Positions 3,899 through 16,275 of a stretch of DNA of 45,796 nt are shown one piece after another. The notes beneath the pieces were generated by a model that searched no databases, was not told where the DNA came from, and saw only the letters and a program-made list of their open reading frames with translations. Source of the stretch: Opitutaceae bacterium (lineage in GTDB: Bacteria; Verrucomicrobiota; Verrucomicrobiia; Opitutales; Opitutaceae). Each line of letters starts with the position of its first letter. Positions within the stretch are counted from its first letter, which is position 1. The position numbers and the translations under genes are program-made. Location: positions 1 through 45,796 of the forward strand of contig JANJTQ010000034.1 of assembly GCA_024711005.1 (NCBI GenBank), given 5' to 3'.

Positions 3899-5077
3899 AT
3901 GTCAAAGCCCGCCGCGCCCAACATCCTGTGGATCGTTACCACCCAGTGGCGGGCGCAGGCGTGCGGTTATGCGGGCGACCCGAATGCCCGCACGCCGAAC
4001 CTGGACGCGCTTGCCGCGCGCGGCGTGAACTACACGCAGGCCGTGACGCCGCATCCGTTCGGCCCGTTTGCACGCGCGGCACTGCTGACCGGTGTGCCGT
4101 CGCCGGAGAACGGCGTACGCGATTACTACGATCCGCTGCCGACAACCGCGCGGACCATCGCCCATGACATGGGCGAACGCGGGTATGCGACGGCATTTTT
4201 TGGGAAGTGGCATCTGGGCAAACGCGACCCGGCCGCGCCGTTGATGGGCGATGTCCATGCACGAACCCTCGTGCCGCCGGAGGCGCGTGGCGGGTTCGAG
4301 TTTTGGGAAGGATTTGAGGGCGGATTTTTGCTCAACGATCCCTGGCTGCACGGCACGCGATTGCCGGAGCCGGTTCAGTTTCAAGGTTACCAAAGCGACA
4401 TTCTATGCGAACGCGCGGCGGAGTGGTTCGAGGGTAGGGCACGACCGCCGGGCGCGCCGTGGTTTGGAGTCGTGAGCCTGGAGGCACCGCATCCTCCTTA
4501 TGACGCGCCTGCCGCAGGCATCGAAAAACGTGATGTTGTCCTTTCGCCCAATGTGCCTCGAGGAGGCGACGTGGCTGAAAAAGCCGCGCATGAACTCGCC
4601 GGTTACTACGCGCACATTGAAGCCACCGACCGGGCGATCGGCCGACTGCTCGCAACGTTGGCCGATAACATCATTGTCGTATTCACCTCCGTCCACGGCG
4701 ACATGCACGGGGCGCATGGCTTGTTTCGCAAAGGCTGGCCTCACGAGGAAAGCATTCGCGTACCGCTGCTCGTGAGTGGTGCGCCTGTGAGTGGTGCGCC
4801 GGGTTCGACTTCGATTGCACACCGATCCGATGAACCAGTTTCGCTCATCGACCTGCCGACGATGACCCGCGCGTGGTCCGAAGGCCGTGCATGGACGTGC
4901 GAACGTGAGCGCGCCGAGATTTCGATGCCGAGCGTCGTCGCGCTGTCGCATCAATGCGACCGTGTGTGGCGCGGCTGGCGTTCACCGGTGAGGAAGGAAA
5001 TTTTTAACGCCGACGGTTCGCCGTGGCTGGCGTTCGACTTGGCGCGCGATCCGGGCGAATTGCGGAACCTGGTTTGA
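3899..5077 (+). CDS. Sulfatase-family protein with degenerate active site
   Basis: A 392-residue protein with the alkaline-phosphatase-like sulfatase fold: NILWIVTTQ at residues 8-16, TPNLDALAARGVNYTQAVT, ARAALLTG at 58-65, FGKWHLGKRD at 101-110, HGDMHGAHGLFRKG at 266-279 and the C-terminal FDLARDPGELRNL. The fold is clear, but key residues are gone. The formylglycine Cys of CxPxR is Gly55 and its Pro is Phe57, the first metal Asp is Thr15, and the Asp of SDHG is Val265. Arg59 remains. By family knowledge it should not hydrolyse sulfate esters, so binding or a scaffold role is more plausible. There is no signal peptide. I start at the ATG for MSKPAAPN; a GTG at 3884 would add five residues. 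Confidence 0.9.
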   Translation: MSKPAAPNILWIVTTQWRAQACGYAGDPNARTPNLDALAARGVNYTQAVTPHPFGPFARAALLTGVPSPENGVRDYYDPLPTTARTIAHDMGERGYATAFFGKWHLGKRDPAAPLMGDVHARTLVPPEARGGFEFWEGFEGGFLLNDPWLHGTRLPEPVQFQGYQSDILCERAAEWFEGRARPPGAPWFGVVSLEAPHPPYDAPAAGIEKRDVVLSPNVPRGGDVAEKAAHELAGYYAHIEATDRAIGRLLATLADNIIVVFTSVHGDMHGAHGLFRKGWPHEESIRVPLLVSGAPVSGAPGSTSIAHRSDEPVSLIDLPTMTRAWSEGRAWTCERERAEISMPSVVALSHQCDRVWRGWRSPVRKEIFNADGSPWLAFDLARDPGELRNLV

Positions 5078-5078
5078 A

Positions 5079-5150
5079 AGTAGCGCAGGCTTCCAGCCTG
5101 CCATGGACACGGCTCAGGGGATCGGAAGCAGGCTGGAAGCCCGCGCTACT
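5079..5150. repeat. 72-bp inverted repeat after the degenerate sulfatase
   Basis: AGTAGCGCAGGCTTCCAGC at 5079-5097, continuing CTGC, is matched by GCAGGCTGGAAGCCCGCGCTACT at 5128-5150, giving ~22-bp arms with one internal difference and a ~26-bp centre. It starts two bases after the sulfatase stop and could also act as a 3' transcript structure. It resembles the other dispersed intergenic repeats in the window. Confidence 0.7.
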
Positions 5151-5233
5151 TTCCCCGGAAGTTTTTTTCTAAGAAAACGAAGGCGGTCGTGTCTTAGAGG
5201 GTGAAGTCATGCTTGTTCCGCCTTTCAACCGCC

Positions 5234-5827
5234 ATGGAGTCCGCCGTTTTCACCTCATCCGCAGCTCCGCCCTTGCGTGAGGAAACCAAGGCGACCTATG
5301 TCTTTGAACTCGCGATGAATAGCCCTGCATCGACCCTCGCCGGATTGTTTGAGACGGAAGAGGGGCCGCTGCTACACTTCGCGCTTGGTTTGATCGGACG
5401 GCGGACCGTCGCGGAGGAGTTGGTGCAGGAGGCATTCATGCGGCTGCATCCGCTGTGGGCCGAGGTGGAAAACCCGCGCGCGTGGCTCTATCGCTGTGTG
5501 CGCAATCTCGCGCTCAACCACCTCCGCGATCATCGCCGAGAAACCGGATTGGAGGATGGCGTCGAGTCGCTGCCCGCCTCGGCCGAGCTGCCCGTCGAAG
5601 ACATGGGCCGGCGCGAAGCGGTGGGATTGGTGAGACTGTTTTTGGCCGAGCTGCCGACCGAGGATCGCGATTTGATTCACCTGAAGTATCACGAGGATTT
5701 GAAATACCATGAGATCGGCCAACGCACGGGGCTGAACGCCGGCACGGTCGGTTACAAACTGCATCACCTGTTGAAGAGCCTGGCCGACACGCTGAGGAAC
5801 GCGGGCATCGAAGGGAGCCGGGGCTGA
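5234..5827 (+). CDS. ECF-type RNA polymerase sigma factor
   Basis: A 197-residue sigma-70-family factor with only regions 2 and 4, the extracytoplasmic-function arrangement. Region 2 contains VAEELVQEAFMRLHPLW and ENPRAWLYRCVRNLALNHLRD, with the usual D/E-L-V-Q-E-x-F signature and promoter-melting helix. Region 4 is LPTEDRDLIHLKYHEDLKY followed by the HTH EIGQRTGLNAGTVGYKLHH. It should direct RNA polymerase to a small promoter set. The next gene starts 14 bp downstream and begins with an anti-sigma-like membrane segment, the usual partner arrangement. The start is uncertain: GTG 5201, ATG 5234 and ATG 5315 are all in frame without a good ribosome site, and 5315 would still keep region 2 whole. 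Confidence 0.88.
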   Translation: MESAVFTSSAAPPLREETKATYVFELAMNSPASTLAGLFETEEGPLLHFALGLIGRRTVAEELVQEAFMRLHPLWAEVENPRAWLYRCVRNLALNHLRDHRRETGLEDGVESLPASAELPVEDMGRREAVGLVRLFLAELPTEDRDLIHLKYHEDLKYHEIGQRTGLNAGTVGYKLHHLLKSLADTLRNAGIEGSRG

Positions 5828-5829
5828 CC

Positions 5830-5834
5830 GGAGG
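5830..5834 (+). promoter_or_regulatory. Shine-Dalgarno site of the VWA/anti-sigma gene
   Basis: GGAGG lies 7 nt before the ATG at 5842. It is one of the few clear Shine-Dalgarno sequences in this window and supports that start as well as efficient translation after the sigma factor stop. Confidence 0.7.
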
Positions 5835-5841
5835 CAACGCC

Positions 5842-8800
5842 ATGAACAACGACCATTTTAATAAGGATAACCCCCCGCCGATCCCTCCCGAACTGGAGGC
5901 TCGCGTTGTGGCCTGGGCGCTCGGCGAAGCCTCGGCCTTCGAGGCGGCGGAGTTGGAACGCCTGTGCGCGGAGCAGCCCGAGTTGGCGGTTTTCAAACGT
6001 CGCATCGAAGCGGTGCACGGTTTGGCGGGCGAAGCGGCGAAGCCACCACGTGAAGTGTTGCGTCTGTCGGCTGAGCGCCGCGCAAAACTGCTGGCTGTAA
6101 TCGGTGGCGGTCAAAGTGTGGCCGGCGTCCCCGCCGGACAAGGACCGGCGTCGCCCGCCAAGCGATCCGGCGGAAGCGTGAGGGCATCGAAGCGATTCGC
6201 CTGGCGCGAGTGGGCGTTGCCGATGGCGGCGTGCCTGGCGTTGGTGTTTTCGTTGGCAACAGTGATCGTTCCGAAGAGGGCCGGTGAGCAGATCATGGGT
6301 AAGAAAAAGGCCTTTGAGGCTGCACCGACACTCATGGCGTCGGATACGAATGAGGCGCTGGTAGACCATTCCGGCGCGTTCCGGGGAGAGCAGCTGAAGC
6401 AGATCGAACACCGTTTACAGGTTTCTCGTAAAGGGGGAGGAACCGCGAGCGGCTTAGGTTCTGGTCTGGACGTCAGAGATGCGTTCGCGGCGCAGGCGGA
6501 CCGGTTTAGTCCGCCAGCCCCGACGACCTCGTCCGTTAGTAGTGGCATCTCAATCACCGCCGGAAAACCAACGGAAAGTTTTACGGGGCAGTTCGAGTTG
6601 GAGAAAAAAATCACCGCGCTCGAAAAACAGAGAGAGGCGCGTTCCCAGGCAGAGTTCGATGCTGATCAATCAAGGCCGGGATCGAGAAGCTTCGCCGACA
6701 AAATGGACGACCGTCGTCGTCTCGATTCGGTCACTTCGGACGTTCATCGTCGCCGCCAGCTAAACCCCGCTCCTTCCGCTGATCCGTTTGCTCCGCCTGC
6801 GGCTGGATTGGATAGCGATACGAGCTTCTCTCTGGATGAAACCGAGCTGGCAAAGTTGGAAGTCAAGGGCCGCAGCCAATACCTGGCAGGCGATACTTCC
6901 GGGGCCGAAGAGACATTCAGGATGCTCGAAGCCGTCTCTCCGGAAAACGCTCATGCGAAAAGCTTCCTCGGACGGATCGCAAAAGAGAAAGCTGCCATAG
7001 CTGAACTGAATCGTATCAAGACGCGCTCCCAGCTGATGGAGGAAGTTGGAAATTCGTGGCAGCGGCCGACGGGCTATGTAACAAAATCCAAGACGCAGAA
7101 AACCAGCGAAGAGCTTAATCGGCGCCTGGACCGAATCGTCATTCCCTCGGTCAACTTCAGCGGGGTGCCTCTGAACCAGGTTGTCACGACGCTGATGGCT
7201 ATATCGGAAGAGCATGATGCCAGTGAGACTGGAACACGCGGTGCAAATATCGTGCTGGTGGATCCGTTGGATAAAAATCCGAACGTATCGATCACGCTGC
7301 GTAATCTTTCACTCCGCAGGATTCTAGACCTCATCACCGATTCGACTGGATATCGCTACGAGATCCGGGACGGCACCGTGGTGGTGTTGCCCGGACTCCC
7401 CCCACTTCTTGATAACGCCATTTTCCCTCTTCCTCGCACCCTCGTTCGACGCATGATTGGTGCCATTGGAGAAGAACTGACGCCCGAAAATGCTTCCTCG
7501 GAGATACAGAGATTTCTCCAGCAATGCGGGGTCGATTTCAACCTGTCCGGCACAACTCTGGTGTACGATGGAGCTGCGCTGATTGTGAATCAGACGCCCA
7601 AGAACCTGGAGCGTATCCGCAAAATCATTGATCGCTATGAGGAAGGCGTATCAAAGGCGGCGCAGCGCGACGAACTCACCACGGCGGCCGCGCCGGTATC
7701 CACGTTCTCACTTCATGTGAGCGACGTGTCTTTCAAGCTTACCAAGGAGTCCATTAGGTACGGGGTGACTTATCCGGACAAAATCCGTCCCGAGGAGTTC
7801 TACAATGCGTTCGACTATGGCGATCCGGCGCCGGTGGCGGGCGAGGCGGTTTCGTGCCGGATCGAGCAATCGACGCATCCGTTCATGCAGCAGCGTAACC
7901 TCGTTCGCATCGCCATGAAGGTGCCTGCCGCGGGGCGCGGGGCGAGTCAGCCTCTGCGTCTCACCGTTCTACTCGATACGTCCGGCTCGATGGAGCGAGA
8001 GGATCGTGCGGCTACCGTGCAGGCCGCGCTCGTTTCCCTAGCTTCGCTACTTGGGCCGAATGACCGCGTGTCGCTGGTCGGGTTTGCCCGCACGCCGCGT
8101 TTGCTTACCGAGGGTGTGCCGGGCGACCAGGCGATCCGCGTCGTCGACCTCGCGGCGCGGACTCCCGCCGAGGGCGGCACCAACATGGAGGAGGCCCTGC
8201 AACTCGCCGGGGAACTTGCGCTGCGTCAGCGACTGGACGGCGCGCAGAATCGTATCGTTCTCCTCACCGACGGCGCGGCCAACCTGGGCAATGCCGATCC
8301 GCAGGCATTGTCGAAGCAGGTCGAAGCCCTTCGCCAAAACGGCATCGCGTTCGATGCGTGCGGCGTGGTCGCCGACGGGCTCGATGACTCGGTCTTGGAG
8401 GCGCTCACGCGCAAGGGCGATGGACGTTACACGCTCATCAATTCACCCGAAGACGCCGACGCGACCTTTGCGCGTCAGCTCGCGGGAGCGTTTCGTCCGG
8501 CCGCCAAGGACGTGAAGGTCCAGGTGCATTTTAATCCGGCCCGCGTGGGACGGTACCGCCTGATCGGCTTCGAACAGCACCGGCTCAAGACGGAGGATTT
8601 CCGCAACGATGCGATTGATGCCGCCGAGCTCGCGTCCGAAGAGGCCGCCGTGGCGCTTTACCAAGTCGAGGTGTTGCCCGAGGGTGAAGGCGAACTGGGC
8701 GAGGTGTTCGTGCGGTTTCTTGACACGGCGACCGACCAGCGGGTCGAGCGGTCGTGGACGCTCGCCTACGAGGCGCAACCATCCGCGTTTTCCCGTGCCA

Positions 8801-8994
8801 CGCCGTCGATTCAGCTGGCGGGAAGCTCCGCATTCCTCGCCGAGAAACTCCGTGGTGGTGCGCTCGCCGGACAGATCCGACTCGATGAGTTTGCGCCGAT
8901 CGTGGAAGGGCTGGCGGGATATTATCCGCAGGCGACTCGCGTGCAGGAATTCATCACGATGTTCCGGCAGGCCCGACGGCTGAAGGGCGAATGA
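5842..8994 (+). CDS. Anti-sigma-like membrane protein with secretin-type and VWA domains
   Basis: A 1050-residue protein. Residues 1-115 are cytoplasmic and resemble the N-terminal part of anti-sigma factors (PELEARVVAWALGEASAFEAAE), followed by one membrane segment at about 124-142. A TPR-like stretch lies near 334-385. A secretin/TonB short N-terminal (STN) type domain is at ~434-514 (IPSVNFSGVPLNQVVTTL, NVSITLRNLSLRRILDLIT), with a second secretin-like subdomain to ~600. Then come the N-terminal domain of YfbK-type proteins, a VWA domain with an intact metal site (DTSGSM at ~712, GGTNMEEA at ~779, LTDGAANLG at ~808) and a C-terminal DUF3520-like region. It follows the sigma gene by 14 bp, so it probably holds the sigma factor at the membrane and senses something outside through the VWA part (inference). 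Residues ~150-600 read less GC-biased than the flanks, suggesting a mosaic origin. Confidence 0.88.
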   Translation: MNNDHFNKDNPPPIPPELEARVVAWALGEASAFEAAELERLCAEQPELAVFKRRIEAVHGLAGEAAKPPREVLRLSAERRAKLLAVIGGGQSVAGVPAGQGPASPAKRSGGSVRASKRFAWREWALPMAACLALVFSLATVIVPKRAGEQIMGKKKAFEAAPTLMASDTNEALVDHSGAFRGEQLKQIEHRLQVSRKGGGTASGLGSGLDVRDAFAAQADRFSPPAPTTSSVSSGISITAGKPTESFTGQFELEKKITALEKQREARSQAEFDADQSRPGSRSFADKMDDRRRLDSVTSDVHRRRQLNPAPSADPFAPPAAGLDSDTSFSLDETELAKLEVKGRSQYLAGDTSGAEETFRMLEAVSPENAHAKSFLGRIAKEKAAIAELNRIKTRSQLMEEVGNSWQRPTGYVTKSKTQKTSEELNRRLDRIVIPSVNFSGVPLNQVVTTLMAISEEHDASETGTRGANIVLVDPLDKNPNVSITLRNLSLRRILDLITDSTGYRYEIRDGTVVVLPGLPPLLDNAIFPLPRTLVRRMIGAIGEELTPENASSEIQRFLQQCGVDFNLSGTTLVYDGAALIVNQTPKNLERIRKIIDRYEEGVSKAAQRDELTTAAAPVSTFSLHVSDVSFKLTKESIRYGVTYPDKIRPEEFYNAFDYGDPAPVAGEAVSCRIEQSTHPFMQQRNLVRIAMKVPAAGRGASQPLRLTVLLDTSGSMEREDRAATVQAALVSLASLLGPNDRVSLVGFARTPRLLTEGVPGDQAIRVVDLAARTPAEGGTNMEEALQLAGELALRQRLDGAQNRIVLLTDGAANLGNADPQALSKQVEALRQNGIAFDACGVVADGLDDSVLEALTRKGDGRYTLINSPEDADATFARQLAGAFRPAAKDVKVQVHFNPARVGRYRLIGFEQHRLKTEDFRNDAIDAAELASEEAAVALYQVEVLPEGEGELGEVFVRFLDTATDQRVERSWTLAYEAQPSAFSRATPSIQLAGSSAFLAEKLRGGALAGQIRLDEFAPIVEGLAGYYPQATRVQEFITMFRQARRLKGE

Positions 8995-9025
8995 GCCATG
9001 ATGATGATCCACGCCGAAGCTCCTA

Positions 9026-9067
9026 AGGTAGGGCCGGAACGGCGGGCCCAGCGGTCTCGCCCTACCT
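9026..9067. repeat. 42-bp inverted repeat before the giant-gene promoter
   Basis: AGGTAGGGC (9026-9034) and GCCCTACCT (9059-9067) are perfect 9-bp arms around a GC-rich centre. It lies just after the VWA gene stop and may double as a transcript end signal between the two genes. There is no T tract. Confidence 0.55.
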
Positions 9068-9074
9068 CGATCCA

Positions 9075-9102
9075 TGACAAATCTCTGACAATCCTCTGAC
9101 AA
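9075..9102. promoter_or_regulatory. Three TGACAA direct repeats at 11-bp spacing (PhoB/OmpR-type half sites)
   Basis: TGACAA occurs at 9075-9080, 9086-9091 and 9097-9102, exactly one DNA turn apart. Read on the other strand this is TTGTCA repeated every 11 bp, the spacing and core (TGTCA) of PhoB-family boxes. The array ends about 30 bp upstream of a perfect -10 hexamer. A response regulator of the PhoB/OmpR family is the natural candidate binder. No such regulator gene is in the window, so this is inference. Confidence 0.5.
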
Positions 9103-9109
9103 CTTCGGC

Positions 9110-9138
9110 GCAATTGGCCGCCGTGTGCCGCGTATAAT
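9110..9138 (+). promoter_or_regulatory. Probable sigma-70 promoter of the giant gene
   Basis: A perfect TATAAT lies at 9133-9138, followed by a leader of about 40 nt to the ATG at 9187. At the ideal distance the -35 (9110-9115, GCAATT) is poor, and the TTGGCC at 9114 is only 13 bp away. This suggests that the promoter depends on an activator bound at the adjacent TGACAA repeats. Confidence 0.5.
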
Positions 9139-9186
9139 CACGGGGCGCATCTCCCGAATACACTTACCCCTGACACCTCATTTTTT

Positions 9187-12100
9187 ATGAACGCTTCTTT
9201 CTTTAATGTAGGAGCCTGCTTGCAGGCGATTCGTGTGGTGGCACAGGCGTTCCGCCCGTGTTTCCGAGCCCATGGGCGGGACGCCCATGCCACTCCAGGC
9301 AAGCAGACCTTTGCATTCGGAGTACTGGCGTTGCTCGCCACGACGTTGTCGGCGGCACCGGTCTCCGCGGATCGTGCCCAGGTTTCGACCTCGCTCACGC
9401 CGGGCGGCGGCGGTCGGATCCTGGTCGAGGCCACCGGTGTGCAGCCGATCGCACCGCTGTTTTTTGCGGCGAGCGCCGAGCAGAACGTGCGCATCGGCGC
9501 GGGCGAGATCACCGGCGAGATGAAGCTCAACGTACGCGTGGTTCAAGGAAGCGCCGAGGTGCTCACACTGGGGTTATCGGGCGATGGCGAGGTGGTTGCG
9601 GTCAGCGGCGTGGGTTTGCGCGACTGGTCGGTGCGGCAAGGCGTGGGCGACGCGGCGGCGAAACGGTTTCTCGATCTCCGGTCCACACTCGTCGATGGAA
9701 ACGCTCCGCGCACCCTCGACTTGGTGGTGCGCACGCGTCTGAGCAATCCGGCGGTGCCGGGCAAGACGGCCGTGTTGTTGTTGACCGCCGGCGATGCCGT
9801 GGGATTTGAGTCGCGGGTGCGCTTGCAGCCCGACGCAACGGTTGATGTGCGAGTGGCGCAGGCCTCCGGGGTGATCGCGGTCGGCGGCTCGAAAGGTCCG
9901 GACGAGGCGTTGGGCTTTGTGGCGCGCGGCGAGGCGGGGATCGAACTGGCGCTCGCGCGGCGCGGGGCGGCTTTGGCTGAGGCGGAGCTGACGGCGGTGC
10001 AACTCACGGGCGCGGTCAACGAAGCGGCGGGCAGCGTGGATTTCCGTTTCCGGGCGCAAGGGCGCGTGGAGTTGGCGGGCGCTCGGTTGCGGTTGCTTTC
10101 GGGTCGGGCGGCGTTGACCGGACAGGCGTCAGGCGACGGCTGGCATGTGGAGCTCGCGAAGGCGGACAACGACGCGGTTTACTACGAATTGGTGTTCGAC
10201 CGAAAAGGCATCGTGCCGGTCGATCTGGCATTTGCGGCGGCCATGAGCGAAGCGGGCGATTGGCGGAAGTTGCATTTTCACATGCCGGCGGGCGCGGTGG
10301 TGCCGGTGGTGCTGACGGGGCTCGCGGCGGACGGCGTGGAATTTGATCCGACGCAGAATGTCGTGCCGCTGACGACGACCGCCGGATGGCAGGGCTTCCT
10401 GCCGGCGAACGGCGGTGCGTCGCTGGCGTGGAAGCGCACGCGCGAGGCGGGCGTGGCGACGTTGTCGTTTACCAGCGCGGAGCAGACGGAGGTGCGTGTC
10501 GGTGCGGGTCTGCTGCGTCAGTCATCGCAGATCGCGTTTCGCATCTTGCAGGGAAAATTGGACGGGGTGCGTCTGCGGCTCGACGGACCGGGCGAGATTG
10601 TCGGCGTCGAGGGCGCGAACGTGCTTGGTTGGAAAGTTCTGCCGGAAGGCGAAGGACGCGTGTTGGAGGTGAAGTTGAGCCGCCCGTTTGAAGGTGAAGG
10701 CCAGCTCATTGTGCGGAGCCAATCGACGCTCGGCGGGTTTCCCGTTCGGGCCGAGGCGGTGCGGCTGACACCCGAGGGCGGGGTGAGGCATGCGGGTTTT
10801 GTGCGCGTGGCCAACACGGGGGCCGTGCGGCTGGAGGTCGCGGATGTCGAGGGCATGATGCAGCTCGCGCCGGAGCAGTTCCCGGGCGGCGCGGTCGAGG
10901 CGGGTGCGCGGCAGATGTTTGTTTATCGGTTCCCGTCGGCGGAGCATGGCTATCGCGTGCTCGCCAGCCAGATTCTGCCCGAGGTGGGTGTGTCGGCGGT
11001 CGTCACGTATGAACTCGCGGAGACCGACCGCATCATCAACGCCGATCTCGAACTCGATGTGCGCGAAGCGCCGTTGCGCGACTGGTCGCTGGAGATTCCG
11101 GAGGATTACGCGGTTGTCGCGGTGCAAGGCGCGGGCGTGGTCGACTACGTGGTCGAAAGCGCAGCCCGCGACGGTCGGCGCACGCTCAAGGTTCTTTTTG
11201 AAAAAGCGGTCGAGGGACGTCAGCTCGTGAAACTGCGTCTGGAGAAAAACCAGGCGGCGGGCGCGGGTGAGTGGACGCTGCCTCCGCTGGCTTTCCCGGG
11301 CGCGAAGTCTGTGCGCGGACACGTGGGCGCGGTGTCGGCGCCGGGCTATCGCATCACGCCGGGAGCGACCCGTGAATTGGTCGAGGTGCCGCTGAGCTAT
11401 TTCCCGCGACAGACGCCCGGCATGCAACAGGCGTGGCGGTTGCGCGAGGCGAGCTGGGCGGCGGCCGTTAAAATAGAGGCTCTTGGCCAGAGCGTGCAGG
11501 CGGATGTGTTTCACCTGTATTCGCTGAAAGAGGGCGTCGTTTACGGAAGCGTGCTCATTAATTATTTCGTGATCGGCGCGCCGGCCGGGGAGCTGCGTAT
11601 CGAAGTGCCTGATACGATCGGGAACATCGATGTGACCGGTCAGGGCGTGCGACGCGAGTGGCGGCGCGAAGGCACGCAGGTGATCGTGGCGCTGCACCAA
11701 CCGGTGCTCGGCGCGGCGACCTTGCTGGTGACCTTTGAACAACCGATGAGTGCGCGCGGCGGCGTGATTAATCCCGGCGAGGTGCGTCCGCTGGGCGTGC
11801 AGTCGGAGCGCGGATATTTGCAGGTGGTCAGCCCGCTTCAGGTGAAGAACGAAATCAAGAAGGCGGACGGCGCCCTCTTGAAACTGGAGCCGCTGGAGTT
11901 GCCGGCGGAGCTGCGCTTGCTGACGACTTCGCCATCGCTGGCGGTTTATCAATACACGGCGCGGCCGTTCGCGCTGGAGTTGGGTGTCGATTGGTATCAG
12001 CCGGGCGAGACGGTCGATCAGGTCGTGGATTTTGCGAAGCTGTCCAGTCGGGTGGCTCGCGATGGACAGGTCGTTACCGAGGCGCGGTTTTTTGTGAAGA

Positions 12101-15100
12101 CACGCGGACGCAAGGCGCTGCGACTGGAGCTGCCGGAAGGCGTGAAACTTTGGGAGTCGCGGGTGGATGGGGAGGTCGTCAACGCCCGCGCCGACGGCGG
12201 ACATACGCTGGTGCCATTGCCGGCGCGGTTGAATCCCAACGAGCCGGCCGATGTGGTGCTGCGGCTCGGTCAGGGGGCGGGGAAGTCGGCCGGACGTGTG
12301 ACCGTGACGGCGCCCAAGATGTCCGCACCGATGGTGATTGGTGAATGGACGCTGCACGCGGATTCAGACCGTCTGCTGGTGACGAAGCGCGGAGAAGTCG
12401 TGCGGAGCAATCTCACGGAGCGTGGCTTTGAATGGTTGTCGCAGCGCGGCCGCGTGCCGGTGATCGGGCTGCTGTTATTGGTGGCGGCGGCGGTGCTGGC
12501 GTTGCGGGCGAAATCGGGACGGTGGCTGCCGTTCGGTTTGCTGGCGGGTGCGCTCGCGGTGGTGTTCGCGCTGGCGATGGCGATACAGGCCGCGAGCAGC
12601 CGGCGGATTAACACGAGCCATGTCGATTATGCGGCGACGGTGGTGCCCGCCGATACGGCGGTGACGATCGAAGTGGCCAACACGGTTGCCTGGCGCGCGA
12701 TGATTTCGGGCTGGGGTGTGGCCGCGGTGATTGTCGGCGCGATCCTGCTGATCGCGTCGTTGCTGCGAGGCCGCTTTGCAGGTCGCGAGTTTGCCCGCGC
12801 AGGGAGCATTGCGGAGCGCCTGCAAGCAGGCGGCCTACCTGCGATGCTCGGAGCGGCGCTGATTGTCGGGGGTGTGCTGGCGCAGCGGTTTGGCGCGGTC
12901 GGATTTTTTCTGTTGATCGCCGCGGTGGTGTTTTTGTTTGGGATCCTGCCAGGGTTGGGACGCTCCTGGAGAGCCTGGCGGGAATGGCGTCAGCGTCGGA
13001 ACGACACCGGTCCGGAAGATGAAGGAACGGCGACGGCGGGTCCGTTGCTTGTGGTTGTGCTGCTCGCGGGTGTCGCGCTGGGCTTGGGTGCGCCCGATGT
13101 GCACGCCGCCAAGGCGGCACCGGTATCCGATCCGTGGATGCAGGAAGGCGCGAAGGCGGCCCAGTCTCTGGTGCAGCGCTGGGAACTGCGCGAAGGACGC
13201 CTGTTTGCCGAGGCGGAGTTCACGGTGCGTGGAAAGCCGGGCGACAGTTTCCTGTTGTTAAAGGCGCCGGCGGTGCTGACGCATTTTTCCGGCGACGGTC
13301 TGCGCGTCGGCAAAATCGTGCGCGACGGGGCGACGGCCTATGTCGTGTCGCCCGAACGCGAAGGCACGTTGGTTGCGCGGGTGAAGTTTGAACTTCCGGT
13401 GCCGGATATCACGCGAAGCCTGACGCTGCCGACCGGTCCGGCGGCCATGCAGCGTGTCACGATTCAGCTTGATCAAGGCGGCTGGGACTTTGGCTCGCCG
13501 ATGGCCATTCAAGTGTTGCCGACGACAGGGCTCGGCGAAGGGCAAAGCGGGGCGACGTTGGTGCTCGGGCCGACGGGTGCGGCGACGATTCAGTTCACGC
13601 CGCAGAAACGAAACCTCTCGGCGGAGGCGACCCAGTTTTACGTGGAGACGGCCAGTCTGTTCGCGCCCGGACCTGGCGTGGTCAATGGTTACACGCGCGT
13701 CACGGTGCGACCGGTGCAAGGGCGCGTGACGGCGCTCGAACTCGACGTGCCGGAAGGTTTCACGGTGGGCGAGGTGGGCAAGGGGCCGGTGGGGGCGTGG
13801 CGGTTTAATCCCGAGACGCGCCGGCTTCAGGTGGCGGTCGAACCGGCGCAGGCGGAGGCGTTTAATTTTGTGGTCGAGTTTCAGCGCGGCACGGCGGCGC
13901 TGCCCTACGATCTCACGCTGCAACCGGTGCGGGTACAAGGAGCGTCGGGCGAAGTCGGCATGGTGGCGCTGGCGTTCGGTGGTGACGCGCAGCCGGAAGG
14001 TGTGAAACCCGAGGGGTTGTCGCCGGTGAACGTGGAGGATTTTGATGCCACGCTGGTGCCGCGCGGGCGCGACGGACAGCCGTTGGCGGTGTTGCAGCAG
14101 GTGTATCGACATGGTGGTGACGGGGGAGTGCTGACGTTGCGCGTCGCTCCGGTGGCTCCGGAGGTGAGGCTGGCGACGAAACAGGTGCTTTCGTTTGGCG
14201 CGGACCGGCTGGTGCTGGCGGTCGATTTGAACGTGGCGATTACGCGGGTGGGGTTGTTCAAACTGAGCTTTGCGCTCCCCGCGGGGTTGGAAGTGGAGTC
14301 GTTGAGCGGACCGGCGCTGAGTCATTGGACCGAGGCGCGGGAAGGGGCGCGGCGCGTGGTGACGATGCACCTCAACGGACGAACGATCGGCGATCAGCGC
14401 TTTGCGTTGACGCTCGCCGGGCCGGCTCCGGCGGCGCAGGCGGGTTGGGCGGTGCCGCGCGTGTTGCTGCGCGAGGCGACGCGACAGACGGGCGAGTTAC
14501 AACTCGTGCCGGAGAAAGGTCTGCGGTTGCAGGCGATGGAGCGCACGCATGTGTCGCAGCTCGATCCGCGCACGGTGGGCAATACGCGGCCGGGCGCGCT
14601 GGCGTTCCGGTTGTTGCAGGAAGATTGGGCGCTGTCCGTCGGCATCGAGGCGCTTGATCCGTGGGTGACGGTGCAGGCGCTGCAGGAAGTGACGGCGCGC
14701 GAAGGGCAGACGCTTACGCGGATCGCATTGCGCTACAAAGTGGAGAATGCGGCGGTCAAAACCCTGCGCGTCCGGCTGCCCGGGCTGAGTGCGGAGCAGG
14801 CGCGAACGGTGCGTGCGACGGGTCCGGCGGTGAGCGATTTCGCGGCGGTTCCGGGCGAGCCGGAGCGTTGGGAGATCCGGTTTCAGCGCGGCATCGTCGG
14901 GGAAACCGAAGTGCAGATCGAGTTCCAGGCGCAGGCCGGGCGCGAGCAGGGACGGGAAACCATTGCCACACCAGTATTCGAAAATGTGCGACAAGCGGTG
15001 CAGTTTGTCGCGGTGCGGGCGGGCGGACGTCTGGAGTTGGAAGCGGCGGAGATTCCCCGCGGCTGGCAGCGGCTCGACTGGGCTGCCGTGCCGGCGGCGT

Positions 15101-16275
15101 TGCAGGATCGCGGCGACCGCAGTGTGCCGGCGCTGGTCTTCCGCGTGGCGGAGCCGGAGAAGCCGCTGACGGTTCTTGTGCGCCGGCATGAGGTGGCCGA
15201 TGCGTTGAAGTTGCGCGTGACGGGAGGCGAGTTGACCACGGTGTTTTCACCGGACGGACCGTTCCTCACGGCGGCCGAGTTGCGTGTCGAGGTGGTCGAA
15301 AAGAGCACGTTGCGTGTGCGGTTGCCCGAAGGCTCGCGGTTGTTCAACACGATGGTGAATGGCGAGAGCGTTTCGGTGGTGCGCGAAGGCGCCGAGTATC
15401 TGTTCCATGTCGCGCCCAGCACGGCCTCCGGACGCGTTGCGAAAGTCCGGATCGTCTACGCGGTGACGCAGGCGCAGGACGGACGGATCGCGTTGCAGGG
15501 GCCGGGGCTGAACGTGCCGCTGGAGAACGTCTCGTGGCGCGTGGTGATTCCGCCTGGGTATGCACTAGACGAATACGCTGGCGGGCTTCGACTGCGGGAG
15601 GAGCGTATGGCGGGGAGCTTCGGGTTGGGTGATTACCAGTCGCTGGTCGTGTCGAAACGCGCGGCGGAGGCCAAGCAGGCGACCGACTTCATCACGGAGG
15701 CGAACATCCTGCTGCAGAAAGGCGAGCAGCAGCAGGCGGGCGAGGCTCTCAATCGTGCGGCAAAGGCGAATGCGTTCGATCAGGCGACGAACGAAGACGC
15801 CCGGGTGCAGTTGCGTGCGCTCAAGACCCAGCAGGCGGTGTTTGGCCTGAACACGCGCCGGCAGAAGCTCTATCTGGATAACAGCGCCGAGGTCGTGAAG
15901 AACGAACAACTCGAGCAGGCGGCGAACCTGAATCCGTTTCTGCAAGGGCGCATGAACTACGACCCGAAGCAGGTGGATCAATTGCTGATGGGCAACACGG
16001 CGGAAGAAAACAGTGCATTGCGCGGGATTGCGGCCCGGATCGTGGACCAGCAACTCGCGGCCGAGCCCGCGCCCGGTGCGATCGACGTGACACTGCCTGA
16101 AAAAGGCCAGGTGCTGACGTTCACGCGCAGCCTTCAAGTGGACGGCGGAGCACCGCTGGAGTTGCGGTTGGATGTCTCGTCGGCGCGGCGCTCAGGGGTG
16201 GGCTTCGGGTTGCTGGTGCTGGTGGTAGCGGGCGGGATCGTCGGGCTGCTGAGTCGGCGGAGAAAAACAGCGTGA
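9187..16275 (+). CDS. Giant exported multi-pass membrane protein of unknown function
   Basis: A 2362-residue protein that I do not recognise. Hydrophobic residues ~43-58 followed by SAAPVSA form a signal peptide, but residues ~8-37 ahead of it are encoded by an inserted intergenic repeat. Residues ~62-1085 look beta-rich. About five membrane segments lie between 1090 and 1258. A second signal-like hydrophobic stretch at 1285-1305 ends in a VHA-A cleavage-like site and leads into another ~1000-residue beta-rich half. A helical, Gln-rich region precedes a C-terminal membrane helix (2337-2356) with a basic tail. A module with the pattern V-x-Q-G...P-x-G-x-V...W recurs near residues 116, 452 and 1504, with a related form near 619. 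It follows the sigma and VWA/anti-sigma genes but has its own promoter. It may be a large envelope or surface structure; that is speculation. Confidence 0.85.
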   Translation: MNASFFNVGACLQAIRVVAQAFRPCFRAHGRDAHATPGKQTFAFGVLALLATTLSAAPVSADRAQVSTSLTPGGGGRILVEATGVQPIAPLFFAASAEQNVRIGAGEITGEMKLNVRVVQGSAEVLTLGLSGDGEVVAVSGVGLRDWSVRQGVGDAAAKRFLDLRSTLVDGNAPRTLDLVVRTRLSNPAVPGKTAVLLLTAGDAVGFESRVRLQPDATVDVRVAQASGVIAVGGSKGPDEALGFVARGEAGIELALARRGAALAEAELTAVQLTGAVNEAAGSVDFRFRAQGRVELAGARLRLLSGRAALTGQASGDGWHVELAKADNDAVYYELVFDRKGIVPVDLAFAAAMSEAGDWRKLHFHMPAGAVVPVVLTGLAADGVEFDPTQNVVPLTTTAGWQGFLPANGGASLAWKRTREAGVATLSFTSAEQTEVRVGAGLLRQSSQIAFRILQGKLDGVRLRLDGPGEIVGVEGANVLGWKVLPEGEGRVLEVKLSRPFEGEGQLIVRSQSTLGGFPVRAEAVRLTPEGGVRHAGFVRVANTGAVRLEVADVEGMMQLAPEQFPGGAVEAGARQMFVYRFPSAEHGYRVLASQILPEVGVSAVVTYELAETDRIINADLELDVREAPLRDWSLEIPEDYAVVAVQGAGVVDYVVESAARDGRRTLKVLFEKAVEGRQLVKLRLEKNQAAGAGEWTLPPLAFPGAKSVRGHVGAVSAPGYRITPGATRELVEVPLSYFPRQTPGMQQAWRLREASWAAAVKIEALGQSVQADVFHLYSLKEGVVYGSVLINYFVIGAPAGELRIEVPDTIGNIDVTGQGVRREWRREGTQVIVALHQPVLGAATLLVTFEQPMSARGGVINPGEVRPLGVQSERGYLQVVSPLQVKNEIKKADGALLKLEPLELPAELRLLTTSPSLAVYQYTARPFALELGVDWYQPGETVDQVVDFAKLSSRVARDGQVVTEARFFVKTRGRKALRLELPEGVKLWESRVDGEVVNARADGGHTLVPLPARLNPNEPADVVLRLGQGAGKSAGRVTVTAPKMSAPMVIGEWTLHADSDRLLVTKRGEVVRSNLTERGFEWLSQRGRVPVIGLLLLVAAAVLALRAKSGRWLPFGLLAGALAVVFALAMAIQAASSRRINTSHVDYAATVVPADTAVTIEVANTVAWRAMISGWGVAAVIVGAILLIASLLRGRFAGREFARAGSIAERLQAGGLPAMLGAALIVGGVLAQRFGAVGFFLLIAAVVFLFGILPGLGRSWRAWREWRQRRNDTGPEDEGTATAGPLLVVVLLAGVALGLGAPDVHAAKAAPVSDPWMQEGAKAAQSLVQRWELREGRLFAEAEFTVRGKPGDSFLLLKAPAVLTHFSGDGLRVGKIVRDGATAYVVSPEREGTLVARVKFELPVPDITRSLTLPTGPAAMQRVTIQLDQGGWDFGSPMAIQVLPTTGLGEGQSGATLVLGPTGAATIQFTPQKRNLSAEATQFYVETASLFAPGPGVVNGYTRVTVRPVQGRVTALELDVPEGFTVGEVGKGPVGAWRFNPETRRLQVAVEPAQAEAFNFVVEFQRGTAALPYDLTLQPVRVQGASGEVGMVALAFGGDAQPEGVKPEGLSPVNVEDFDATLVPRGRDGQPLAVLQQVYRHGGDGGVLTLRVAPVAPEVRLATKQVLSFGADRLVLAVDLNVAITRVGLFKLSFALPAGLEVESLSGPALSHWTEAREGARRVVTMHLNGRTIGDQRFALTLAGPAPAAQAGWAVPRVLLREATRQTGELQLVPEKGLRLQAMERTHVSQLDPRTVGNTRPGALAFRLLQEDWALSVGIEALDPWVTVQALQEVTAREGQTLTRIALRYKVENAAVKTLRVRLPGLSAEQARTVRATGPAVSDFAAVPGEPERWEIRFQRGIVGETEVQIEFQAQAGREQGRETIATPVFENVRQAVQFVAVRAGGRLELEAAEIPRGWQRLDWAAVPAALQDRGDRSVPALVFRVAEPEKPLTVLVRRHEVADALKLRVTGGELTTVFSPDGPFLTAAELRVEVVEKSTLRVRLPEGSRLFNTMVNGESVSVVREGAEYLFHVAPSTASGRVAKVRIVYAVTQAQDGRIALQGPGLNVPLENVSWRVVIPPGYALDEYAGGLRLREERMAGSFGLGDYQSLVVSKRAAEAKQATDFITEANILLQKGEQQQAGEALNRAAKANAFDQATNEDARVQLRALKTQQAVFGLNTRRQKLYLDNSAEVVKNEQLEQAANLNPFLQGRMNYDPKQVDQLLMGNTAEENSALRGIAARIVDQQLAAEPAPGAIDVTLPEKGQVLTFTRSLQVDGGAPLELRLDVSSARRSGVGFGLLVLVVAGGIVGLLSRRRKTA
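9208..9302. repeat. Dispersed intergenic repeat embedded in the giant gene's signal peptide region
   Basis: GTAGGAGCCTGCTTGCAGGC, then a GGTGGCACAGGCGTTCCGCC...GGCGGGACGCCCATGCCAC arrangement, is the same style of element seen between genes. Here it is translated as VGACLQAIRV...HGRDAHATPG. The short MNASFF before it and the KQTFAFGVLALLATTL after it together make a normal signal peptide, so the element appears to have inserted in frame. Confidence 0.6.
12817..12838. repeat. Short repeat fragment within the giant gene
   Basis: Read in reverse, this is GTAGGCCGCCTGCTTGCAGG, nearly the beginning of the element at 9208. It encodes RLQAGGLP in a loop between two membrane segments, where an insertion would be tolerated. 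Confidence 0.45.

Follow-up and report, generated by a model that had tools for sequence, protein, structure and literature searches.

A sigma factor, probable VWA anti-sigma and giant membrane protein operon across Verrucomicrobiota, with a candidate signalling insert in the giant

A gene for an ECF sigma factor, a gene for a VWA-domain membrane protein that by homology is an anti-sigma factor, and a gene for a giant exported protein stand side by side in a contig from an Opitutaceae bacterium. This arrangement is more than chance, because it recurs across the phylum Verrucomicrobiota: of the 56 giants that are full-length and have 5 kb or more of sequence upstream, 51 are preceded by the sigma and VWA genes on the same strand and in the same order. 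One genus, g45, keeps the giant alone, without trio-type sigma and VWA proteins, and since this lineage also lacks a helical insert in the last domain of the giant, the comparison points to the insert as the part that the anti-sigma would monitor. At the level of sequence, co-occurrence and the co-loss of one giant segment support a functional tie between the giant and the sigma–VWA pair, and the result is a phylum-wide regulatory operon with a testable signalling element. The trio is not described among the literature matches listed; to the preliminary description of the locus the three-part arrangement was unfamiliar. The sigma–VWA half, on the other hand, is not rare: an ECF sigma gene lies beside 20 of the 21 ordinary YfbK-type VWA genes examined, with no giant. 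An ECF group with VWA anti-sigmas may have been mentioned earlier, for example in the 2021 ECF re-classification. For YfbK-type VWA proteins beside ECF sigma genes generally, the suggested identity is that of anti-sigma factors.

The window, by which we mean the whole stretch of 45,796 nucleotides analysed, carries the three genes in the order first described, including the 14-bp gap between the sigma and VWA genes (Table 1). Pfam matches to Sigma70_r2 and Sigma70_r4_2 bear out the ECF assignment; the protein has regions 2 and 4 only, with no region 3, and its sigma70-ECF match is above the cut-off. By simple hydropathy only, the VWA protein has the one membrane helix claimed for it, and the giant looks exported and multi-pass as proposed, with a signal-peptide-like segment, a central group of hydrophobic helices and one more close to its C-terminus. 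The separate promoter postulated before the giant gene was not confirmed: a sigma-70 consensus scan of positions 9000–9190 was empty, and the motif that precedes the sigma gene reached only a background score there.

Table 1. Features of the sigma–VWA–giant locus, in window coordinates
Feature	Position	Strand	Basis or remark
Conserved promoter motif TTCTAAGAA-N13-(spacer)-GTGTCT 5' of sigma gene (putative autoregulatory ECF promoter)	5167..5194	+	motif comparison across loci
ECF sigma factor gene	5234..5827	+	Sigma70_r2, r4_2 by Pfam; 197 aa
VWA-domain membrane anti-sigma factor (by homology), 1050 aa	5842..8994	+	
N-terminal class I anti-sigma domain, ~aa 1–90; zinc ligands lost in window copy, zf-HC2 intact in deep-branch members	5842..6111	+	alignment; zf-HC2 search
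Single transmembrane helix, aa 125–143	6214..6270	+	simple hydropathy only
TPR/STN segment, ~aa 202–601, related to same-genome type IV pilus-type secretin; accessory	6445..7644	+	
VWA domain, MIDAS residues D712, S714, S716, D810 invariant	7960..8433	+	Pfam; alignment
YfbK_C domain, aa 885–1045	8494..8976	+	Pfam; 43/43 members
Giant exported multi-pass protein, 2362 aa, two homologous beta-repeat halves	9187..16275	+	
Central membrane block of giant, ~6 helices, aa 1090–1302	12454..13092	+	hydropathy
Last beta-sandwich domain of giant, aa 2003–2335, OST1/ribophorin I-like and M1-aminopeptidase-N-domain-like, insert included	15193..16191	+	model; fold match
Helical insert in last giant domain, aa 2147–2291; missing in g45 giants	15625..16059	+	alignment; model
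C-terminal transmembrane helix of giant, aa 2337–2355	16195..16251	+	hydropathy; model

Neighbourhoods were taken from part of the 82 giant matches in the phylum, within a search that covered Verrucomicrobiota; two duplicate rows were dropped (L163, a copy of L122, and L176, a copy of L035). In the loci examined, neither the giant nor the VWA protein lacks the sigma gene in most genomes, g45 with its lone giant being the exception. Five giant-linked VWA genes have no sigma neighbour (L150, L158, L168, L171 and L177), and all five start no more than 250 bases from a contig end. VWA matches below E 1e-90 occur in 11 of the 177 genomes of the order, namely 10 of the 16 that bear a giant plus G112, and the next match is at 1e-56. 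A further 24 giant genomes (outside the neighbourhood set, cut by a contig end, or G275) were covered by the VWA search only, and 20 of these have a trio-type VWA (E below 1e-100). The single contig scan of genomes used a narrow three-sequence query. Variants of the layout include G112, where sigma and VWA genes lie at a contig end and the genome has no giant match anywhere; G275, with the giant and the sigma–VWA pair on separate contigs; and L128, L131 and L136, with 1.2–2.8 kb between VWA and giant. A 4-bp overlap between the sigma and VWA reading frames, of the kind found in coupled pairs, occurs in 17 of 61 loci (start codons as chosen by the analyst). No further conserved neighbours of the trio were seen, the biggest shared flank cluster comprising seven loci from close relatives.

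A motif of fixed spacing, AAGRR-N13-GKGTCT, precedes the sigma gene in 22 of 59 loci, which suggests that the gene may be autoregulated; the choice of the ATG at 5234 as sigma start agrees with its position. Five loci outside the motif-building set (L124, L125, L128, L173 and L175) score 24–38, at positions −45 to −63. The motif is missing from all 23 deep-branch loci, where a promoter was looked for and none was found, and even by weight matrix it is weak or missing in 9 of the 36 class-level loci. Across 12 genomes (~66 Mb) the strict pattern has ten matches, nine of them the motif-building sites, and the sole match away from a sigma gene equals the reversed-pattern control (1). A regulon scan of the window's own genome with two strict patterns gave one extra match each (C114; C327). 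This operon order and promoter would also fit simple co-expression, in which the giant is only an output of the sigma factor while the VWA anti-sigma responds to something else in the envelope, such as a metal, a polymer or another protein, and never touches the giant. We regard that explanation as a substantial minority possibility; the VWA proteins of pairs with no giant beside them (20 of the 21 ordinary loci, each with a sigma gene next to it) presumably sense something else, and what this explanation leaves unexplained is the absence of the insert from g45 giants alongside the loss of sigma and VWA.

The anti-sigma role first proposed for the VWA protein is supported by homology, because 21 of 58 family N-termini match zf-HC2 in Pfam. 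The window N-terminus has no Pfam match and is without Cys ligands, yet it aligns with the family; zf-HC2 is kept in the deep branch. The locus resembles ECF sigma/class I (ZAS) pairs, in which an ECF sigma is likewise followed by a single-pass membrane protein of a family with an N-terminal zf-HC2-type domain. Unlike those pairs, it has a VWA/YfbK module as its periplasmic part and a giant as additional partner, and the class to which the window belongs has lost the zinc ligands. All 43 members combine vWF_A, VWA and YfbK_C, which they share with YfbK-type VWA proteins beside ECF sigma genes, and the MIDAS residues are invariant in the 43 sequences aligned. A tree separates trio VWAs from ordinary YfbK-type VWAs in a 100/100 split (63 versus 21 rows, with a long-branch warning), and the trio VWAs, unlike the ordinary ones, are tied to the giant. 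Alignments and tree leave out L133, which has its VWA matches in two ORFs and is counted as a trio. Protein binding is common among VWA domains whose MIDAS is complete, and the periplasmic part here greatly exceeds the anti-sigma domain in size; the VWA protein might then serve the giant chiefly as structural partner or in its assembly, with a secondary anti-sigma role. We consider this unlikely, given that deep-branch members retain an intact zf-HC2 and that an adjacent sigma gene is kept where the pair has parted from the giant (G275). A weak sequence match of the VWA part to ITIH4 reflects the common VWA fold.

The combination of STN and VWA domains first reported for the window protein is present (STN at E 1.4e-7 by Pfam), but it does not look like a shared design, as Pfam finds STN in 2 of 43 members, and STN as the core of the system was rejected. 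The segment appears recurrent but optional: BLAST with the window segment (E 0.01) finds similar stretches in 12 other members, several of these matches being very weak, and the TPR/STN segment is absent from several close relatives of the window protein. FecR-like cell-surface signalling through STN could draw on these matches, together with a FecR_C match in the window protein that is weak and below the Pfam cut-off. We think it very improbable in view of the scarcity of STN by Pfam, the lack of any similar segment in the relatives L035, L036 and L174 by the same BLAST search, and the giant, which has no TonB-dependent-receptor match in Pfam and whose helices are inner-membrane-type by simple hydropathy.

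The giant has no match in Pfam or NCBIfam at E 0.01, and a profile of its C-terminal half matched no PDB sequence at E 0.1; at these thresholds none of the three databases gave a known relative by sequence. Its two homologous beta-repeat halves flank the membrane block. In fold searches its last domain matched the C-terminal domain of OST1 (8agb_E, Z 15.8, 3.0 Å over 162 residues) and the N-terminal domain of M1 aminopeptidases (4qhp, Z 14.5; Escherichia coli 4xmv, Z 14.2). The moderate-confidence model also has the OST1-like succession of a membrane-proximal beta-sandwich and a TM helix. A search with the whole C-terminal half gave very low TM-scores for its first entries, among them OST1, integrin alpha and further proteins built of tandem beta-sandwiches, so we relied only on the single-domain match. 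A family of proteins of more than 2000 residues with no Pfam name is in this way linked to the fold of a eukaryotic oligosaccharyltransferase subunit. The likeness to OST1/ribophorin I and the M1 enzymes is one of fold only; unlike them, the giant has many tandem copies, a helical insert and halves arranged around a membrane block, and no catalytic domain was seen.

The insert, 145 helical residues near the membrane within the OST1-like domain, is where g45 departs from the rest. The corresponding block is only 20–27 aa long in the five g45 giants, as against 129–168 aa in the other 65 of the alignment; the giant profile matches four of the five up to the insert start. None of the five g45 genomes has a VWA match, and their sigma matches are only weak (E 2e-6 to 9e-6). 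The loss is not perfectly clean, because in four of these giants the last 41–45 residues after the insert are shorter than usual and diverged, and the five represent one loss event. G282 would be a second, weaker case: it has no trio-type VWA, and its insert is unmatched by the insert profile, with a helical-looking segment remaining; its best sigma match is E 7.6e-7, the window sigma being a remote query for that branch. Four genomes have the insert with no trio-type VWA found (G131, G268, G358 and G473); their assemblies are all fragmented, and in each the giant lies no more than ~1.7 kb from the end of its contig. Mean identity in the core of the insert (aa 2176–2230), a short stretch picked by eye, is 44%, the highest among 15 segments measured; the whole insert averages 36%, like the beta parts. 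The natural loss in g45 could serve as a ready-made test of which segment of the giant is the signalling element.

We give about an even chance to a self-regulating homeostat whose anti-sigma would monitor the giant by way of this insert. The single-pass VWA protein would tether the ECF sigma to the inner membrane by its cytoplasmic N-terminal domain and would use its VWA/YfbK domain, on the periplasmic side, as the sensor. The clearest target of the sigma factor would be its own operon, yielding more sigma, anti-sigma and giant. The giant itself is predicted to sit in the inner membrane and to project two large stacks of beta-sandwich domains into the periplasm, and would most likely be monitored at the juxtamembrane insert of its last domain by the MIDAS of the VWA domain. 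A changed contact may then release the sigma factor, probably by regulated proteolysis, and the presumed product feedback would match giant output to envelope demand. More tentatively, the trio could be a new class of transmembrane signalling, with a VWA anti-sigma whose MIDAS would count, or feel the load of, the giant ribophorin-like envelope protein encoded in the same operon via a dedicated insert, the operon being sensor, actuator and product at once and the insert discarded once the circuit is lost. The homeostat would recall FecI-FecR-FecA, where a sigma factor and a membrane anti-sigma are joined by a third envelope protein as product and, in our case putatively, signal source. It differs in that STN is not conserved in the VWA family, and also in the product of the third gene, which is a beta-repeat protein of multi-pass, inner-membrane type where the Fec system has an outer-membrane receptor.

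The three genes lie in the window as the preliminary description had them, in the order ECF sigma factor, VWA membrane protein and giant exported multi-pass protein (2362 aa), on the + strand, with 14 bp between the first two and 192 bp between the VWA and giant genes. A conserved neighbourhood across Verrucomicrobiota is also borne out: 51 of 56 giants (length 1900 aa or more, with 5 kb or more of upstream sequence) have VWA and sigma genes upstream in the same strand and order, with a VWA–giant spacing of 1.2–2.8 kb in three of the 51 trios (L128, L131, L136). The five others are four giants from one genus (g45) and L144, whose genome (G275) has sigma and VWA genes, but on a different contig from the giant. 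Promoter scans gave no support to the separate promoter suggested ahead of the giant gene.

Genes of the trio in the window
Feature	Position	Strand	Remarks
ECF sigma gene	5234-5827	+	Pfam Sigma70_r2 and r4
VWA protein gene	5842-8994	+	Pfam STN, vWF_A, VWA, YfbK_C
Giant gene	9187-16275	+	third of the trio

Across the phylum, the giant profile has matches in 82 of 387 genomes, though some genomes are counted on weak, partial matches alone; within the order, 16 of 177 genomes have a giant. Neighbourhoods were fetched for a part of the giant-bearing genomes and for named contigs; among 24 giant genomes that were unfetched or cut by a contig end (G275 included), 20 have a trio-type VWA protein at E < 1e-100, and G268, G282, G358 and G473 have none at that threshold. 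Within the order, VWA matches below 1e-90 (the next is 1e-56) occur in 11 genomes, namely ten of the 16 with a giant plus G112, where the contig stops at the VWA gene and a genome search found no giant. That leaves six genomes with a giant: G131 and the five from g45. No further conserved genes flank the trio in the loci compared. The nearest named relative is a Rariglobus MAG (giant identity up to 83%). At L142, sigma genes flank the trio on both sides (4797-5207, 15331-15918), the upstream one apparently shortened. A second, distant giant-like family, of adjacent genes of ~1.1 and ~2.5 thousand residues (L049:7531-18482, L050:14398-17721), matches the giant profile at E about 1e-77 to 1e-93; the sigma and VWA profiles match nothing in those fetched stretches.

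An HxxxCxxC zinc anti-sigma domain stands at the N-terminus of deep-branch VWA members, and zf-HC2 is matched in 21/58 N-termini of the family. The same stretch aligns in the window-class members with its zinc ligands lost, so that the window protein by itself has no zf-HC2 match. In 17 of 61 loci (with start codons of our choosing) the sigma reading frame runs 4 bp into that of the VWA gene, and all 43 sequences compared keep the VWA metal-site residues D712, S714, S716 and D810. Outside the trio, an ECF sigma gene adjoins 20 of 21 ordinary YfbK-type VWA loci (L203-L222 and L053; the exception is L212), which suggests that VWA anti-sigma factors form a large class; one of these pairs lies in the window's own genome. 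A branch with 100/100 support parts the trio VWA proteins (63 rows) from the ordinary ones (21) in a tree for which the tool warns of long branches.

Upstream of the sigma gene, a bipartite motif, AAGRR-N13-GKGTCT, occurs at constant spacing in 22 of 59 loci, its second half being GTGTCT in 18 of the 22; at L035, L159, L174 and L181 it falls within an over-long reading frame as taken, ahead of the conserved start. The pair count in motif discovery was 14/34; in five single-base shuffles the top pairs reached no more than 6. Five class-level loci outside the motif-building set score 24–38 at positions -45 to -63, and with these the motif is present in 27 of 36 class-level loci; it is missing or weak in the other nine and in all 23 deep-branch loci. 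The strict motif has ten matches in 12 genomes (~66 Mb), nine at the trio, all of them sites used to build the motif, and one elsewhere; a reversed-pattern control gave one match in the same genomes. Such sites are almost absent elsewhere, which would fit a sigma factor that acts chiefly on its own operon. A large inverted repeat, AGTAGCGC...GCGCTACT (window 5079-5150), by eye dispersed-repeat or terminator-like, lies a short way upstream of the putative sigma promoter.

The giant has no Pfam or NCBIfam match at E 0.01. Its N- and C-halves are homologous (E 9e-80), each with a repeat period near 170 aa, and hydropathy places about six helices between them and one at the C-terminus. Residues 10-38 (window 9214-9300) look dispersed-repeat-encoded, a 21-base piece having two more genomic copies with 2 mismatches, and are missing from the Rariglobus copy; it is therefore unsure where the window giant begins and which residues form its signal peptide. 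The model of the C-half, of modest confidence (mean pLDDT 73, pTM 0.34), is largely beta. Modelled alone (pLDDT 69, pTM 0.47), the last domain has a beta-sandwich into which six helices are inserted (aa 2147-2291), together with two strands and a TM helix. This model resembles OST1/ribophorin I (8agb_E, Z 15.8, 3.0 A, 162 residues) and the N-terminal domains of M1 aminopeptidases (Z 14.2–14.5), a likeness of predicted fold and not family membership; a PDB sequence search with the C-half profile gave no match at E 0.1. The insert core (aa 2176-2230) has the top mean identity (44%) of 15 giant segments; the whole insert, at 36%, is comparable to the beta parts.

The insert block measures 129–168 aa in 65 aligned giants outside g45 and 20–27 aa in five g45 giants (L042, L043, L044, L047, L048), of which four fit the giant profile up to the insert start; the C-terminal hydrophobic helix is kept, and the short stretch before it has diverged. 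None of the five g45 genomes has a VWA match, and their best sigma matches are weak (E 2e-6 to 9e-6, 24–25% identity), where four trio genomes scored 9e-15 to 2e-38 in the same search. G282, without a trio-type VWA protein, has an insert that fails the insert profile, yet a helical-looking segment remains; its sigma test is weak, the query being remote from that branch. Among the giants examined, none lacks the insert in a VWA-bearing genome. Against co-loss count G131, G268, G358 and G473, where the insert is present and no trio-type VWA protein was found; all four are fragmented assemblies with the giant near a contig end. These sequence comparisons are suggestive, not statistical, of a tie between the insert and the sigma and VWA proteins, because they represent at most two loss events, and the g45 divergence after the insert, the G112 case and the weak G282 sigma test make the pattern less clean.

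Our preferred reading, which we rate at about even odds, is that the trio is a product-feedback homeostat, in which the VWA anti-sigma factor would hold sigma and read the giant through the juxtamembrane insert, by a presumed contact. Sigma release, perhaps by regulated proteolysis and given the supposed topology of the parts, would boost the whole operon, the sign of the feedback likewise being our assumption. M50 proteases are present in the window genome and are merely permissive for such a mechanism, as all 14 control genomes also have them. The sigma/anti-sigma principle is already known. Among the literature matches listed, a scope outside which many subscription papers fall, a VWA anti-sigma factor with a dedicated giant partner is undescribed; that one gauging its operon's own giant via an insert is a new class of transmembrane signalling is a tentative proposal, which we think rather less probable than the homeostat.

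The STN segment, earlier taken as part of the design, belongs to an accessory STN/secretin-like middle of the VWA protein. A secretin encoded elsewhere in this genome, lying across two contig ends, shares 45–63% identity with it; relatives at L035, L036 and L174 are without a similar segment, the Rariglobus copy (L158) keeps it and L180 does so partly. Across 43 VWA members, Pfam finds STN in two and Secretin in one. Window 6445-7644 (also L052 and L054) is a pilus-type secretin piece within a probable anti-sigma protein. Similar segments recur in L040, L046, L125, L126 and L157, that of L046 apparently inside YfbK_C.
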